Shown here: positions 3,976-18,774 of the stretch, piece after piece
Layout of the letters: every line of letters begins with the position of its first letter
How positions within the stretch are numbered: the first letter of the stretch is position 1
IMG/VR virus record: IMGVR_UViG_3300021440_000119
Coordinates: 1-24,342 of that record
DNA: 24,342 nucleotides
Source: a virus
Reading direction: 5' to 3' (one strand)
The notes under the pieces: generated by a model
The model's database searches: none
Told to the model about the DNA's origin: nothing
What the model saw: only the letters and a program-made list of their open reading frames with translations
Made by a program: the position numbers and the translations under genes

Positions 3976-4188
3976 ATGAATTGTCCAGAATGTCAGCGCC
4001 CGATGGGCGCCGACGAGTACCAAGTGTCTGCCAACAAGGGGCACAGTCACGTTTTCGATCAAGGCAAACTTGTCGACTTCATAGACGACGGCACCCGACA
4101 GATGGCAATCAACTTTCGCTGCACGATTTGTGGGGCGAAGGGTAGTATTTCATCTTTTTGGACTGCACCAGTGCCGAGGTCGATATGA
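3976..4188 (+). CDS. Small zinc-ribbon protein 1 (70 aa)
   Basis: Predicted 70 residues with two CxxC knuckles, Cys3/Cys6 (CPEC) and Cys49/Cys52 (CTIC), about 43 residues apart. This is the pattern of a single treble-clef or ribbon zinc site. His23 and His25 lie between them. A good Shine-Dalgarno sequence (AGGA at 3968-3971) precedes the ATG. It is the first of three consecutive tiny Cys-rich genes and its stop overlaps the next start (ATGA at 4185-4188). No specific function is recognised. Possible roles are a small head-associated protein or a nucleic-acid-binding regulator; placement in the head operon favours something made late. Confidence 0.75.
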   Translation: MNCPECQRPMGADEYQVSANKGHSHVFDQGKLVDFIDDGTRQMAINFRCTICGAKGSISSFWTAPVPRSI

Positions 4189-4343
4189 AGCGGTGTCTAC
4201 TTTGTGACCGTACTTTTGAGGGGGCAGGGTGCCCTTTTTGCGGCGAGTGCACCTTCATCGAGGTCGAAGGGGTCTTGGAGCAGGGCCCTGCGCCAGTGTC
4301 TGTTCCTGAGCCAGCCCCAGAACCCCGCAAGAGGCGTAAGTGA
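4185..4343 (+). CDS. Small Cys-rich zinc-binding protein 2 (52 aa)
   Basis: Predicted 52 residues. Five cysteines sit in the first 22 residues (Cys4, Cys7, Cys16, Cys19, Cys22), consistent with one compact zinc knuckle. A Pro/Glu-rich tail ending in a basic RKRRK follows. I place the start at the ATG at 4185 because it overlaps the previous stop as ATGA and has GAGG about 7 nt upstream. An in-frame TTG at 4158 would add 9 residues without an obvious ribosome site. The end overlaps the next gene as GTGA. Function is unknown; the basic tail would suit nucleic-acid contact. Confidence 0.65.
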   Translation: MKRCLLCDRTFEGAGCPFCGECTFIEVEGVLEQGPAPVSVPEPAPEPRKRRK

Positions 4344-4708
4344 AATGCCCCGCATGCGGCGGCATTCAACTACAGACTGAATTTCAGACGCAGGGCTTGG
4401 TGCACGTCTGCAAGGCGTGTGACACGAAGTTCTCTGCCGCGGCGGTTCAGGCTTCCAACGAAGTTGCGTTGCCCGAGCCCCCGCCCCTGCCGGTCAGACT
4501 TCCGCCGAAGTTCGATGCGCCGGCGCCCCCACCGCGGGCCAAAAGCCTAGACGTGGTGAAGGAAGCTCGAGCGCAATTGAAGGTGATGAACGCCGAGATT
4601 GCCCGACTTCAGAAGCTCATCGAGAAGAGGGACGAGCTGAAGCGTCTGCTTGACGCTGCGAGTAACAAACCGAAGAGACCAGCCAAGGCTGTTTCTTCGA
4701 AAGCATAG
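4340..4708 (+). CDS. Zinc-ribbon plus coiled-coil protein 3 (122 aa)
   Basis: Predicted 122 residues. An N-terminal zinc ribbon has Cys3/Cys6 (CPAC) and Cys24/Cys27 (CKAC). A Pro-rich linker follows at about 44-66, then a long amphipathic helix, very likely a coiled coil, at about 70-107, and a basic tail. The start is GTG at 4340, overlapping the preceding stop (GTGA) with AGAGG about 5 nt upstream. The architecture suggests a protein that oligomerises through the helix while the ribbon contacts a partner. No family is recognised. It closes a translationally coupled trio of Cys-rich genes between portal and shell genes. Confidence 0.75.
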   Translation: MKCPACGGIQLQTEFQTQGLVHVCKACDTKFSAAAVQASNEVALPEPPPLPVRLPPKFDAPAPPPRAKSLDVVKEARAQLKVMNAEIARLQKLIEKRDELKRLLDAASNKPKRPAKAVSSKA

Positions 4709-11535: not shown

Positions 11536-11904
11536 ATGCCTGTTGATTACGCACGACAAGTAGTTTTCATCAACGGCGTCGAAGCGACGTTGGCCGAGTC
11601 CTTCGAAATGAAGACCGAGAGCGGTGAACAGCCGATTCTCATTCTGAACGAAGGGCTTGCAGGTTTCACCCCCGGTGCAGGGCAGACCACAATCTCGGGT
11701 ACCTTGTATGTCCCTGTTGGGGGCTTTCAGATTGACGTTCAGTCCTTCTGCGCCAACGGCGAATACGTGCCCATCCAATACGGCGTAGGTCCTGTGGCAT
11801 ACGTCGGTACCGGTAAATTCACGGAAGTGACAATCTCCGGCGGCGTGAACGAGCCTGTGAAGGTTCAGTTCACCTGGCTCGGTGAGAAGAAAGCGATGGA
11901 GTAA
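11536..11904 (+). CDS. Tail tube protein (Mu gpM-like)
   Basis: Predicted 122 residues, the normal size for Mu-type tube subunits, which stack as hexameric rings inside the sheath. Mostly strand-like, starting with an N-terminal FINGVEATLAESFEMKTESG and ending FTWLGEKKAME. One of the strongest ribosome sites in the window, TAAGGAG at 11525-11531, lies 4 nt before the ATG and overlaps the sheath stop, in line with the high copy number of tube subunits. Its stop overlaps the chaperone start (TAATG). Confidence 0.85.
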   Translation: MPVDYARQVVFINGVEATLAESFEMKTESGEQPILILNEGLAGFTPGAGQTTISGTLYVPVGGFQIDVQSFCANGEYVPIQYGVGPVAYVGTGKFTEVTISGGVNEPVKVQFTWLGEKKAME

Positions 11905-12674
11905 TGGACCACGGGCCGCCTACCGATGTTCCCGCTTCTGGCTTGGTCGAGTTCTTGAAGGGCAGACCACGGCCTGGCAAAGTTGTGCCGTTCCCTGTCG
12001 AAGGTGTCGAAGGCACCCGATGGGAGAACGTTCGGATTGAAGTGCCGCCTTGCAGCGCCAACGGCGCTGCCATCCTGGCCGCGCACAACCGCATGAAGGC
12101 CATGCTTCCCAAGGAAGAGTGGAGCACGGAGAGTGCATCCGCAGTTCTTGGGGACCTCACGGCCAAGGAGATGATCGCTCGGACCTGTTTCGAGCCGAAG
12201 AACTACGGCACCGAGGAAAAGCCCTTCTACAAAAAGCACTTCGGCAATTCCGAGGATGTGGAGAGATCACTGTCCTCCGATGAGACCGCGGTGCTTCATG
12301 CATTGATGCTGCAGGTTACGTTCGAAATCGGCCCAAGGCTTTCGATCCTGACGGACGAGGAAGTCGACGCGTGGATCGAGGTGCTGAAAAACGGCCTCGA
12401 CCCTTTAGCGTATCTAGTCTTGCCGGATTTACACGTATTGATACGTGGGTTAGTCAACCGGATAAGCAAGGCAACTGCCTCGTCAAGTACATCGCAAAGC
12501 CCGGATTCCCCGCCCTTGACGTTGCCCGATACCTCGGAATCGAGCCAAGCGATCTCAATGATGGGCACTATCTCCTCTGGAGAGCTGCCGTCAAGGCCAC
12601 CAACTGGTTCAAGTGTAAGTAAGCCGGTTCTTCCGAATGCCGCCACAGTCCGGAAGAAGCCCAAGCGCTCGTAA
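11904..12674 (+). CDS. Tail assembly chaperone, zero-frame product (256 aa)
   Basis: Predicted 256 residues. Genes between tube and tape measure usually encode chaperones that coat the tape measure and recruit tube subunits. The first 165 residues look like a folded domain with a C-terminal helical part (VLHALMLQVTFEIG, DEEVDAWIEVLKNG). After about residue 190 the zero-frame sequence becomes low-complexity and Ser/Pro/Thr-rich, ending in a basic KKPKRS. The -1 frame over the same DNA reads as a compact protein segment, which, with a canonical slippery heptamer at 12401, indicates programmed frameshifting as in other phages. The start is coupled to the tube stop (TAATG). An intrinsic terminator follows within 6 nt of the stop. 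Confidence 0.72.
   Translation: MDHGPPTDVPASGLVEFLKGRPRPGKVVPFPVEGVEGTRWENVRIEVPPCSANGAAILAAHNRMKAMLPKEEWSTESASAVLGDLTAKEMIARTCFEPKNYGTEEKPFYKKHFGNSEDVERSLSSDETAVLHALMLQVTFEIGPRLSILTDEEVDAWIEVLKNGLDPLAYLVLPDLHVLIRGLVNRISKATASSSTSQSPDSPPLTLPDTSESSQAISMMGTISSGELPSRPPTGSSVSKPVLPNAATVRKKPKRS
12401..12461 (+). promoter_or_regulatory. -1 programmed ribosomal frameshift signal (slippery heptamer plus downstream stem-loop)
   Basis: C CCT TTA at 12401-12407 has exactly the X XXY YYZ form in the phase of the chaperone reading frame. Downstream, CACGTA (12432-12437) pairs with TACGTG (12442-12447) around a TTGA loop, and an outer CCGG (12423-12426) can pair with CCGG (12458-12461). The spacer is about 15 nt to the outer stem. 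A second, weaker candidate slip site, G AAA AAC, lies at 12386-12392 in the same phase. Confidence 0.6.
12407..12622 (+). CDS. Tail assembly chaperone, -1 frame extension (frameshifted C-terminus, 71 aa)
   Basis: After slipping at C CCT TTA (12401-12407), translation would continue in the -1 frame from 12407 to a stop at 12620-12622, giving a 239-residue fusion (168 residues shared plus 71). This frame is open from 12284, just after a TGA at 12281. The extension contains aromatic and hydrophobic residues spaced as in a globular domain (LVKYIAKPGF, VARYLGIEPSDL, YLLWRAAVKATNWF). Its codons end mostly in C or G from about 12465 onward, like real genes here. An independent start is unlikely: the only candidate nearby is a GTG at 12371 without a ribosome site. 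Unusually, both products are about equal in length. Confidence 0.65.
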   Translation, partial: SVSSLAGFTRIDTWVSQPDKQGNCLVKYIAKPGFPALDVARYLGIEPSDLNDGHYLLWRAAVKATNWFKCK

Positions 12675-12679
12675 GCTCT

Positions 12680-12731
12680 TGCCTGTCATCATGTCTTTGC
12701 GGCGGCCCAGACGTGGTGGCAGGCATTTTTT
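12680..12731 (+). terminator. Strong intrinsic (Rho-independent) terminator between chaperone and tape measure genes
   Basis: TGCCTGTCATCATGTCT (12680-12696) pairs along all 17 positions (three G-T wobbles) with AGACGTGGTGGCAGGCA (12709-12725) around a 12-nt GC-rich loop. Six T follow (12726-12731), then CTT. This is a textbook intrinsic terminator for + strand transcription. The opposite strand has no T-run, so it is unidirectional. It begins 6 nt after the chaperone stop codon and would stop or thin out transcription before the tape measure unless read-through or antitermination occurs. Confidence 0.88.
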
Positions 12732-12735
12732 CTTG

Positions 12736-12806
12736 AGCTCGATCGTCCAATGCTAGGACACCGCGTTCTGACCGCGACAATGTGAGTTCAATTCTCGCTC
12801 GAGCTA
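12736..12806 (+). tRNA. tRNA-Gln (anticodon CTG), slightly atypical, no encoded CCA
   Basis: A 71-nt cloverleaf can be drawn: acceptor AGCTCGA (12736-12742) / TCGAGCT (12799-12805), 7 of 7 pairs; D stem GTCC/GGAC (12745-12748, 12756-12759) with loop AATGCTA; anticodon stem CCGCG/CGCGA (12761-12765, 12773-12777), 4 of 5 pairs, with loop TTCTGAC and anticodon CTG at 12768-12770; variable region CAAT; T stem GTGAG/CTCGC (12782-12786, 12794-12798) with loop TTCAATT; discriminator A12806. Conserved A14, A21, T33, purine 37, T54, T55, C56 and A58 are present, and A15 can pair with T48. Oddities: C instead of G19 in the D loop, C at position 9, a C-A mismatch at 27-43, and A73 rather than the G73 usual for E. 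coli tRNA-Gln. CCA is not encoded. It would read CAG codons if charged. Confidence 0.78.
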
Positions 12807-12810
12807 CTTT

Positions 12811-15399
12811 ATGGCGTTCCTCAGATATGACATCAGTGTAATTGGCGTCGACAAGGTTCGGCAGGCGATCCGCCAGGTCGAGTCCGAGGTCGAAGGCGTC
12901 GGCCGGCGCCAAGTGCTGCACGACCCCCTAGGGCGCCGCATGCCTCGCGGAAAAGGCCCCCTAGGCGCGAACGACAACGCCAGCACCCGTACCGCAGAGG
13001 CCCTTTACCGCCGACAAGAGCGCTACCAAGACCGCCTCAACAAGGCAGAGCGCCTGTCCAATGACCGGAATGCGACGTCTCAGTACCGGCAGCAGCTGAA
13101 AGCGCAGAAGAAGCTGCGCGGCGCCAATGACAACGCCGACTTGAAGTCAGCCGAGGCCGATTACCGTCGCCGTGAGACGCATCGCGCCCGTATGCGCGGT
13201 GTGAATGATAACGCCAGCGCCAAATCTGCAGCTGCAATTGCTGCCCAAGAAGAGAAGCTGAGGGCGGCGGCCATTCAGCGTGAAGAGCGCACGCGTCTCC
13301 GCATGGCGGATCGCGTGGCGCAGGCTGAGTATCGTGGCCGACTGCAGACCGCGAACACGACCAAGACTGTACTGGGCAACACCGCGTCGAAGGTCGCGTC
13401 CATCGGCAAGAGTGCTCTGGCTCTGACAGGCCTCGGCGGCGGGGCGCTGTTCGCGTTGTCGGTCCACTCCGTAGCTTCGCAGCATGCGAAGGCAGCGGAC
13501 CTGGCAAACCAGCTCGAGGGGCGTGACGCGACGCCCAAGTCCTTGGAGGCCACCAAGCGTAACGTTCTGGCCTACGCGAGGTCGACGCGGGGTTTCGCCA
13601 CCGAGGAAGTCCTGGGCGCCATGAGTGCCTTCCAAGAGCAAGCGGGCGAGCCCGTTGCCACCAAGCAAATTGCTCCCCATCTCACGGAGATGGCCCTTGC
13701 CACGGGCTCCGATGTAGAGACCCTCGGTAAGATGGATGCGTCTCTGTTCCGTTCGCTGCGCAACGGTGCGGGCGGCGCTGAGCTCAGTGTCGAGGCGCTA
13801 ATCGCAGCCGTGGATGTCCTAAACCGCAAGTTTGCGGCCATGGGGCAGAAGGGCGCTGTCGAGTTGAAGGACATGGCTCATCTAGGGCCTGAACTCGCCG
13901 AGGTTTCGGCGGACTACGCCGGTAACCGCTTCCAGAATATCGTCAGTTCGGCCGCGGCGCTGCAGAATGTTCGGCAGTATACGACTTCGCCCGACGAGGC
14001 GATGACCTCGCTGCAGAACCTGAAGAACGACCTCTACAACCACACAGACGAAGCCCGGCAGTTGATGGTCTCCCGCGGTATCAAGGGCGACGTCTGGGAG
14101 AACCGCGAGCATCGCAAGCTGCTGCCTTTTGAGCAGTTGATGCCGAAGCTTATCGACGCCACTGGCGGCGATATGGAGAAACTCAACAAGATCGCCAACG
14201 TTCGTGGCACTCGGGCGTACAAGGCCTACATCGACCCGTACAACACGGCGCTCGACAAGGCCCGGTCCGAAGGCAAGAGTGAGAAAGAAGCCCGCGCCGC
14301 AGGGCGCGCGGCGGTCGTAGCCAAACACCGGGAGTTCCAAGGCCTCGAGCAAACCCGAGAAGAGGTCAAGGCCAAAGCGGACTTCCGCATGGCGGAGCCG
14401 GACAAGGCCTTCGAAGCGCAGATGCGGAACCTGACGCAGGTCGTCGGGGAAACGCTTCTGCCGCAGCTGGCAGCATTGATTCCTTCGATCGCGAAGCTTG
14501 TGCCTTACATGCAGTCGTTGGCAGAGGCAACGGTCAAGGCCGCGAAGTGGATCTCCGAGTCCCCTTGGGAGGCGGGTCTTTTAGCCATCGGCACGGTTCT
14601 CGCCGCGGAAATAGCCAAGGCTGGAATTAGCGGTATTATTTCGGCGGGGCTTCAGCGTCTTCTCGTAGGTGCGGCACCCGCCGCGATCACGGCAGCTACA
14701 GCGGCCACAGCGGCCACAGCGGCCACAGCGGCCACAGCGGCCACAGCAGCAACGGCGGCCACGGCGGCCACAGCGGCCCCTACTGCAGCAGTTGCAGGGG
14801 CCGCGGCATTGCCTGCACTAGCCAAGGCGGCGCCTCTCGCAGCGGGGCTTTTGGCCCCTGTTGCCATAGGCGCAGCTTTAGGCATTGGTGCCTACGCAGG
14901 CATCGCCGTGGGCGGGCGCAACACCTACGACAAAGCCAACGCCGACACCTCGCATGTCATGAAGACCTTGGGGGCAGCCCAAGGTGGAGACCTCGAGAAG
15001 ACCATTGGCTACGCCGAGATACGGCTGAAGCAAATCAAGGACGAGGCCGGAATGTTTGGCTCGTTCATGGACTTGTTCGGAGCTGGGCCGGAGGCGGAAA
15101 TCAAAGGCCTCGAGGAACAGATCAAGACCAAGAAGGCTGAGTATCAGTACTGGCTGAACAACGGCAAGCGCGAAACCGAGGACATGCGCAAGAACAATGA
15201 GGCGCGTGCATGGCAAGAGAAGAACGGCGACGGTGGGGTGAACCGCCAAGAAGATCTTCAGATCCTCGGCAAAGTGTTTGACAGCGCCGCGAACAAGATT
15301 GTGGCCTCAAATGAAGCCATGGCGCGGGCCGTAGCCGGCGGCTCGCCAAGTACGACTCTCAACACAGGCTATCAGCCTTCACAACCGACGGTCAAGTAA
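12811..15399 (+). CDS. Tail tape measure protein
   Basis: Predicted 862 residues, the longest gene in the window. Tape measure proteins set tail length and are later ejected to help DNA cross the inner membrane. The N-terminus (MAFLRYDISVIGVDKVRQAI) is typical. Residues about 52-155 are four 26-residue charged helical repeats, and most of the rest is long helix. Hydrophobic stretches lie at about 586-657 (including an Ala-Ala-Thr repeat at 628-657) and about 662-702, rich in Ala/Gly, suited to membrane insertion. No lysozyme or peptidase motif is evident. The ATG at 12811 has no real Shine-Dalgarno sequence and starts 4 nt after the tRNA-like element; at most a GAG at 12801-12803 inside the acceptor stem could serve. 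Confidence 0.9.
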   Translation: MAFLRYDISVIGVDKVRQAIRQVESEVEGVGRRQVLHDPLGRRMPRGKGPLGANDNASTRTAEALYRRQERYQDRLNKAERLSNDRNATSQYRQQLKAQKKLRGANDNADLKSAEADYRRRETHRARMRGVNDNASAKSAAAIAAQEEKLRAAAIQREERTRLRMADRVAQAEYRGRLQTANTTKTVLGNTASKVASIGKSALALTGLGGGALFALSVHSVASQHAKAADLANQLEGRDATPKSLEATKRNVLAYARSTRGFATEEVLGAMSAFQEQAGEPVATKQIAPHLTEMALATGSDVETLGKMDASLFRSLRNGAGGAELSVEALIAAVDVLNRKFAAMGQKGAVELKDMAHLGPELAEVSADYAGNRFQNIVSSAAALQNVRQYTTSPDEAMTSLQNLKNDLYNHTDEARQLMVSRGIKGDVWENREHRKLLPFEQLMPKLIDATGGDMEKLNKIANVRGTRAYKAYIDPYNTALDKARSEGKSEKEARAAGRAAVVAKHREFQGLEQTREEVKAKADFRMAEPDKAFEAQMRNLTQVVGETLLPQLAALIPSIAKLVPYMQSLAEATVKAAKWISESPWEAGLLAIGTVLAAEIAKAGISGIISAGLQRLLVGAAPAAITAATAATAATAATAATAATAATAATAATAAPTAAVAGAAALPALAKAAPLAAGLLAPVAIGAALGIGAYAGIAVGGRNTYDKANADTSHVMKTLGAAQGGDLEKTIGYAEIRLKQIKDEAGMFGSFMDLFGAGPEAEIKGLEEQIKTKKAEYQYWLNNGKRETEDMRKNNEARAWQEKNGDGGVNRQEDLQILGKVFDSAANKIVASNEAMARAVAGGSPSTTLNTGYQPSQPTVK
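12964..13275 (+). repeat. Four 78-bp (26-residue) repeats in the tape measure N-terminal region
   Basis: Units begin at residues 52, 78, 104 and 130 of the tape measure protein. Units 1, 3 and 4 open with GANDNAS, GANDNAD and GVNDNAS; unit 2 is degenerate but keeps A, R, A, Y, R and Q at the matching positions (for example YRRQ in unit 1, YRQQ in unit 2, YRRR in unit 3). A regular period of 26 suits a coiled-coil rod and is consistent with growth by internal duplication. Confidence 0.65.
14692..14781 (+). repeat. 9-bp tandem repeat (GCGGCCACA) in the tape measure gene
   Basis: Ten in-frame 9-bp units encode Ala-Ala-Thr (the last Ala-Ala-Pro). Five consecutive units (14701-14745) are perfect GCGGCCACA; flanking units are GCAGCTACA, GCAGCAACG, GCGGCCACG, GCGGCCACA and GCGGCCCCT. 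This is a slippage-prone minisatellite between two hydrophobic segments of the protein. Confidence 0.9.
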
Positions 15400-18450: not shown

Positions 18451-18774
18451 ATGTCCTTGTGCGCCTTCGTACTCCCGCCCATCCCAGGGCTGCCGTCGTT
18501 GGCGTTGCCGGCGTTCCCGCCCAGCTTTCCTATTCCGACGCTGCCGACGATCCCCGGCATCGACTTGGCGCTGGTCCTGCCGCCTATCCCGGGGCTGCCG
18601 GCATTGGCGTTGCCGGCATTCCCTCCCAGCTTTCCGATTCCGACATTGCCTACCATTCCGGGCATCGACCTAGCGCTGGTGCTGCCTCCCATCCCTGGCC
18701 TGCCCTCATTGTCGCTGCCGGCGTTCCCGCCCAATTTCCCCCTGCCGACGTTCCCCGTCTGCCCCTTGGACTAA
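18451..18774 (+). CDS. Proline-rich three-repeat protein (107 aa)
   Basis: Predicted 107 residues composed almost entirely of Pro, Leu, Ile, Phe, Ala, Gly and Ser with hardly any charge. After a six-residue start (MSLCAF), a 35-residue unit beginning VLPPIPGLP and containing LPAFPPSFPIPTLPTIPG is repeated twice in full and a third time for 31 residues, ending FPVCPLD. One Cys lies near each end (Cys4 and a second near the C-terminus). No signal peptide is seen. It starts one base after the spike stop with no strong ribosome site. Function is unrecognised. Placed between spike and gp46-like genes, it may be a spike accessory or tip, or a proline-rich connector in the baseplate. Codons diverge between repeats while the amino acids stay the same, so the protein is under selection. 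Confidence 0.75.
   Translation: MSLCAFVLPPIPGLPSLALPAFPPSFPIPTLPTIPGIDLALVLPPIPGLPALALPAFPPSFPIPTLPTIPGIDLALVLPPIPGLPSLSLPAFPPNFPLPTFPVCPLD
18469..18771 (+). repeat. 105-bp tandem repeat (2.9 copies) encoding the proline-rich protein
   Basis: Units are 18469-18573, 18574-18678 and 18679-18771. Many differences between units are at third codon positions (for example CCGCCC, CCGCCT and CCTCCC for Pro-Pro), showing old duplications held by protein-level selection rather than recent slippage. Confidence 0.9.

Follow-up and report, generated by a model that had tools for sequence, protein, structure and literature searches.

The window, a 24,342-base stretch of viral DNA, was found to carry a tRNA-Gln(CUG) gene on its plus strand (12736-12806), placed between the genes for the tail assembly chaperone and the tape measure protein and preceded by a long terminator-like hairpin. 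This gene is probably an authentic phage tRNA which would be co-transcribed with the late mRNA and cut out of it, and which carries one mutation at a tertiary contact. No tRNA was found at the same junction in any of 24 related phages. The initial annotation had left three options, namely an authentic tRNA, a decaying one or a tRNA-like RNA with a regulatory role on the tape measure mRNA, of which the first appears the best supported by the sequence comparisons described below.

Identity and fold of the tRNA gene

The gene was called by ARAGORN as tRNA-Gln(ctg) at 12736-12807, the sole tRNA in the 24,342-base record. The Rfam tRNA family RF00005 spans 12736-12806 over model positions 1-71 of 71, scoring 54.7 bits where the gathering score is 29 (E-value 1.9e-9 for the window searched against 4227 families and 4.4e-13 for the record alone), and no other Rfam family gave a match. 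The initial annotation had proposed a tRNA-Gln(CTG)-like gene at these positions, to be abandoned should its covariance score fall below background and its paired positions lack conservation in related phages. No related phage found has a tRNA at this junction for such a comparison; the score lies well above the cut-off, and the two independent tRNA models agree with the predicted fold, as the complete cloverleaf is both the minimum free energy and the centroid structure (-24.4 kcal/mol, z -2.6). Twenty of 21 stem pairs are intact. The acceptor stem (7/7), D stem (4/4) and T arm (5/5) are perfect, as had been annotated, and the anticodon stem has 4/5, the only unpaired stem position being C27-A43. 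This confirms a genuine tRNA-type gene, and chance is excluded.

The anticodon CTG (12768-12770, beginning at position 33 of the gene in the ARAGORN call) lies in the loop TTCTGAC (12766-12772) and is accompanied by U33 and A37, while the D arm reads UC-GUCYAAYG..AGGAC; both features place the gene in a phage tRNA-Gln(CUG) class with the pattern UC-GUCYAAYGGYAGGAC. The D loop is AAUGCUA and the T loop UUCAAUU. G18 and U55 are present, but C19 faces C56 in place of the typical G19-C56. The gene has the pair A1-U72 and discriminator A73, and CCA is not encoded, CUUU coming next. The codon read by this anticodon, CAG, is the preferred glutamine codon of the phage (173 of 247 Gln codons, 70%).

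Members of the class were sought in viral contigs by the D arm and anticodon pattern, with position 19 left free (C or G). There were 52 matching contigs, 51 of them with the whole gene, giving 37 distinct tRNAs; since the pattern fixes most of the D arm, the resulting statistics describe close analogues and not all tRNA-Gln genes. A stricter pattern gave no match in viral contigs. The window tRNA shares with the class its length, C9, D arm, anticodon, variable-loop size and T-loop pattern, and its C9, A26, A37, T-loop pattern and A73 each occur among the members (A73 in 14/37). It differs in having C19 and not G19, in the pair A1-U72, found elsewhere in only one of the 37 (L208, also with A73), in its lack of an encoded CCA, and in standing alone within a virion operon and not in a tRNA array.

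The departures from consensus listed in the initial annotation fared differently in this comparison. The one at position 19 stands, as G18-G19 occurs in 37/37 class tRNAs and C19 is confined to the window; it is a genuine defect, but not of a kind that rules out a tRNA. That at position 9 does not, since U8-C9 is likewise present in 37/37 and is thus general to the class. The pair 27-43 is indeed open here, but it is also open in six of the 37. C19 could be a defect that looks recent or a variant that is tolerated; as the window is a single metagenome contig, it could also reflect a mistake in sequencing or assembly. If real, the loss of the usual G19-C56 contact would possibly lower stability or mark early decay, and its absence from all 37 class tRNAs, although the search pattern permitted it, counts against an authentic tRNA.

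It is on this position that the case for a decaying gene mainly depends, that is, an acquired tRNA which has lost its G19-C56 contact and is disappearing without any role. The C27-A43 mismatch and the failure of any relative found to retain a tRNA at this junction point the same way. Such a reading is considered unlikely. All the remaining pairs are intact, the 27-43 mismatch and C9 are found in the class, and the score of 54.7 bits falls within the range of the tRNAs of related phages (48-63 bits by covariance model). Furthermore, the window tRNA matches its nearest class members at only 46 of 71 bases (65% identity; stem divergence ~43%), and relative to them seven to eight stem pairs have changed on both sides with pairing retained. 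At that stem divergence, unconstrained change would be expected to leave ~10 of 21 pairs, and 20 were reached in none of 20,000 simulated runs; the simulation is a simple and crude one which ignores ancestry, but the gap to the observed 20/21 is large. Taken with the compensatory pairs, this argues that selection maintained the fold during most of its history.

Near copies of the tRNA were found neither in phages or plasmids, where matches were weak and partial at most, nor in 57 genomes from the order to which one putative host belongs, and this too was counted against an authentic tRNA. One weak match among those 57 genomes, L149, falls on a real tRNA-Gln(CTG). Terminase relatives occur in Polyangiaceae/Byssovorax and in another deltaproteobacterial MAG, which suggests Myxococcota hosts for some relatives of the phage and does not establish the host of the window itself. 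One contig of a Byssovorax MAG also holds a dense tRNA array (G021:C14:35044-42542), where a single strand gives more than 20 matches, many of them low-scoring; the array is probably of phage or mobile-element origin.

The junction between tail chaperone and tape measure

The window represents the structural block of a contractile-tailed phage, with genes for terminase, portal, capsid, connectors, sheath (assigned to phrog_165), tube, chaperone, tape measure, a DNA-circularisation-like protein, hub, spike and baseplate, several of these being named from gene order and homology to MW202476.1. Three successive small genes with CxxC pairs, zinc-ribbon-like, are located on the plus strand between the portal and capsid genes (3976-4708), and a 107-aa frame with near-identical proline-rich repeats (LPPIPGLP..LALPAFPPSFPIPTLPTIPGIDLALV) lies on the same strand between the spike and baseplate genes (18451-18774). 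The frame 0 product of the tail assembly chaperone gene, identified by position and by homology to the chaperones of relatives, is encoded at 11904-12674 on the plus strand, with its stop codon TAA at 12672-12674. It contains a putative -1 frameshift heptamer, C CCT TTA (12401-12407), from which the -1 frame extends to 12622. Most relatives have CCCTTTN or TTTTTTN at this site and a -1 extension of ~60-80 aa, as expected if the heptamer serves the programmed frameshifting of tail chaperones.

The tape measure gene (12811-15399, plus strand, 862 aa) was identified by homology, its match to the Pfam family PhageMin_Tail (7.7e-8, 32.9 bits) being slightly below the cut-off of 33.2. Its start at ATG 12811 is supported by the alignment of MAFLRYDISVIG with MFLSYDISIVG of the closest relative (L027), and the annotated distance of 4 nt between tRNA and start codon is thereby borne out.

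The 136 bases between the chaperone and tape measure genes are non-coding, and a second element lies within them which the initial annotation did not include. Five nucleotides after the chaperone stop there begins a 17-bp hairpin followed by U6 (12680-12731), with arms at 12680-12696 and 12709-12725, a loop of 12 nt and the U tract at 12726-12731; four bases then separate the U tract from the tRNA. The hairpin has a predicted energy of -32 kcal/mol (z -6.6, with no shuffled sequence equalling it), and in a scan of both strands it had the longest stem of all T-tract hairpins in the window, none of the rest exceeding 10 pairs. It was missed by a terminator scan because of its 12-nt loop. Three of its pairs are G-U in the plus-strand RNA and become A-C on the opposite strand, so that it is a feature of plus-strand RNA. 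It has the form of an intrinsic terminator, namely a stable G+C-containing hairpin with a U tract immediately after, and may act as a terminator or as a stabiliser of an mRNA 3' end.

Relatives for comparison were gathered by terminase and sheath alignments, and their chaperone and tape measure genes were placed by profile searches, which gave 24 non-duplicate relatives, excluding the window, on contigs long enough to include the junction. Searching with exact sheath and capsid peptides brought up no close relative, and no DNA similarity to the junction was found among phages. The distance from chaperone stop to tape measure start is -8 to +9 nt in 15 of the 24 and 336-657 nt in another eight. 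In L027 the gap is 44 nt and a moderately stable hairpin (z -1.65) covers the chaperone stop. The gap of L034 is filled by an HNH/AP2-like gene, both domain scores being under the Pfam cut-offs, and in L034, L038 and L041 an inserted reading frame finishes at the tape measure start; there is no such frame in the window. With 0/24 relatives having a tRNA here, the tRNA of the window is, on this comparison, a lineage-specific insertion at a junction which, judged from L034, accepts other inserts as well. Known phages with an insert just before the tape measure resemble the window in that this position takes insertions, and differ in that the insert is protein-coding and that they have no tRNA genes. 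That none of the relatives found repeats the tRNA at this junction was counted against an authentic tRNA.

A clear Shine-Dalgarno site is absent before the tape measure in the window and in most of 13 relatives tested. The only Shine-Dalgarno-like triplet ahead of the ATG, GAG at 12801-12803 on the plus strand, lies within the 3' strand of the acceptor stem, and anti-Shine-Dalgarno pairing there (-2.2 kcal/mol) is no stronger than the background median (-2.4). Because stop and start codons are close in most relatives and no clear Shine-Dalgarno site is present, the usual arrangement looks translationally coupled. In the window the 136 bases separate stop from start, and they look to interrupt the coupling that relatives seem to use.

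These features raise the possibility that hairpin, U6 and tRNA together form a cassette for RNA punctuation or dosage in the late operon, replacing the apparent coupling of the relatives. The abundant upstream mRNA (capsid, sheath, tube and chaperone) would be split from the scarce downstream mRNA (tape measure, hub, baseplate and fibres). The hairpin would attenuate transcription or, once RNase P has cut, shield the upstream RNA at its 3' end, and excision would free a near-leaderless tape measure mRNA (CUUU-AUG), while the tRNA may work as a tRNA too. The strongest terminator-like site of the window sits exactly at the junction and the sole Shine-Dalgarno-like triplet is buried in the acceptor stem. 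Furthermore, most relatives keep stop and start within 9 nt, the inserted frames of L034, L038 and L041 could preserve coupling, and the L027 junction combines a hairpin with a 44-nt gap in a similar way. Nevertheless, such a device is judged improbable, as the tRNA is not conserved at the junction, the hairpin of L027 is only of modest significance by its z-score, and the required stoichiometry is achievable through coupling and frameshifting alone. A regulatory role on the tape measure mRNA, as raised in the initial annotation, is permitted by the anatomy of the junction, and it is possible that the tRNA sets tape measure expression.

An authentic tRNA remains the preferred explanation, and from the arrangement we infer its transcription, processing, charging and biological benefit. 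A tRNA-Gln(CUG) gene would have been inserted in this lineage between tail chaperone and tape measure, behind the terminator-like hairpin. With only four bases between U tract and tRNA there is no room for a promoter of its own at the junction, so the tRNA would derive from the rightward late mRNA, with the hairpin being read through or antiterminated; the hairpin could itself lower tRNA transcription. Three host enzymes would mature the tRNA, RNase P by cleaving at 12735/12736, a 3' nuclease by cleaving behind A12806 and the CCA-adding enzyme by finishing the 3' end, and the tape measure mRNA would be left with a 4-nt leader, CUUU. The mature tRNA-Gln would read CAG in late translation or replace a host tRNA lost in infection. 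Replacement of host tRNAs attacked by defence nucleases is a proposed role of phage tRNAs (PMC10264068, PMC11555353).

tRNA genes within virion operons of other phages

According to the initial annotation, phage tRNA genes are usually clustered and lie outside the virion genes. This agrees with the multi-tRNA arrays in which many of the 52 class contigs hold their tRNA, but exceptions were found both among relatives and in an unrelated phage. In the related L128 and L129, a tRNA-Asn(GTT) and a tRNA-Met(CAT) lie between two genes, just upstream of the gene preceding the sheath (L128:14223-14376); in the tRNA-Met of L128 both the D loop (AACAGCA) and the T loop (TGCAATT) are unusual. In L030, L031 and L036, also related, a tRNA-Met(CAT) is found between connector genes with more tRNA fragments close by, and L030:3886-4132 contains partial tRNA-like pieces. 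Both groups resemble the window in having same-strand tRNAs between structural genes and differ in isotype (Asn, Met) and junction; in an unsystematic look no terminator-like hairpin was noticed in front of these tRNAs. In the unrelated HK97-type phage L194, a tRNA-Gln(CTG) belonging to the class of the window tRNA stands alone (2581-2652), on the same strand within the head gene block, between the prohead protease (Peptidase_S78) and the major capsid gene (Phage_capsid). Here the neighbours are head genes and the next start codon is ~140 nt away, compared with 4 nt in the window. On these comparisons the placement of tRNAs inside virion operons is uncommon and recurrent.

The tRNA-Gln of L013 and L014 was considered as a case of the same arrangement and rejected, as it belongs to a different phage and the gene downstream of it is not part of the virion block. 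In another phage contig (L198:7441-7791), a tRNA array contains two tRNAs with CTA anticodons as well as a tmRNA gene whose tag is ANDFAFAA.

The class scan also gave lone tRNA-Gln(CTG) genes adjoining integrase-like genes, named from sequence, in L183, L185, L188, L195 and L214. The tRNA of the window might be the relic of an integration site, in which case it would belong to an attachment site also present in a host tRNA-Gln gene. This is extremely improbable and was rejected on operon position: with a virion gene 4 nt away, the tRNA is embedded in the late operon, which integration would split. Additionally, no integrase gene was recognised in the window, where ten proteins were profile-searched, and the 57 genomes of the putative host order yielded no close host copy.

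A search of the open-access literature gave no matching report of tRNAs between structural genes or before a tape measure, a scope within which absence is not proven. Phage tRNAs are usually treated as clusters for translation or for the evasion of defence (PMC10264068, PMC11555353), and they have also been discussed in lysogeny (PMC10865867). In mitochondria, polycistronic transcripts are described by the tRNA punctuation model (e.g. PMC8601606). As in that system, a tRNA separates coding regions in the window and its excision would define where mRNAs end; the window differs in that a single tRNA is involved, in a bacteriophage, with processing only predicted.

The tRNA of the window is thus an ordinary one for a phage, but its location is unusual and raises the question of how the tape measure gene is expressed. 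This question is a general one, since relatives and the unrelated L194 have similarly placed tRNAs. Single tRNAs in virion operons place tRNA processing in the middle of a late mRNA, where cleavage must alter the ends of the neighbouring structural mRNAs and would perhaps alter their dosage.
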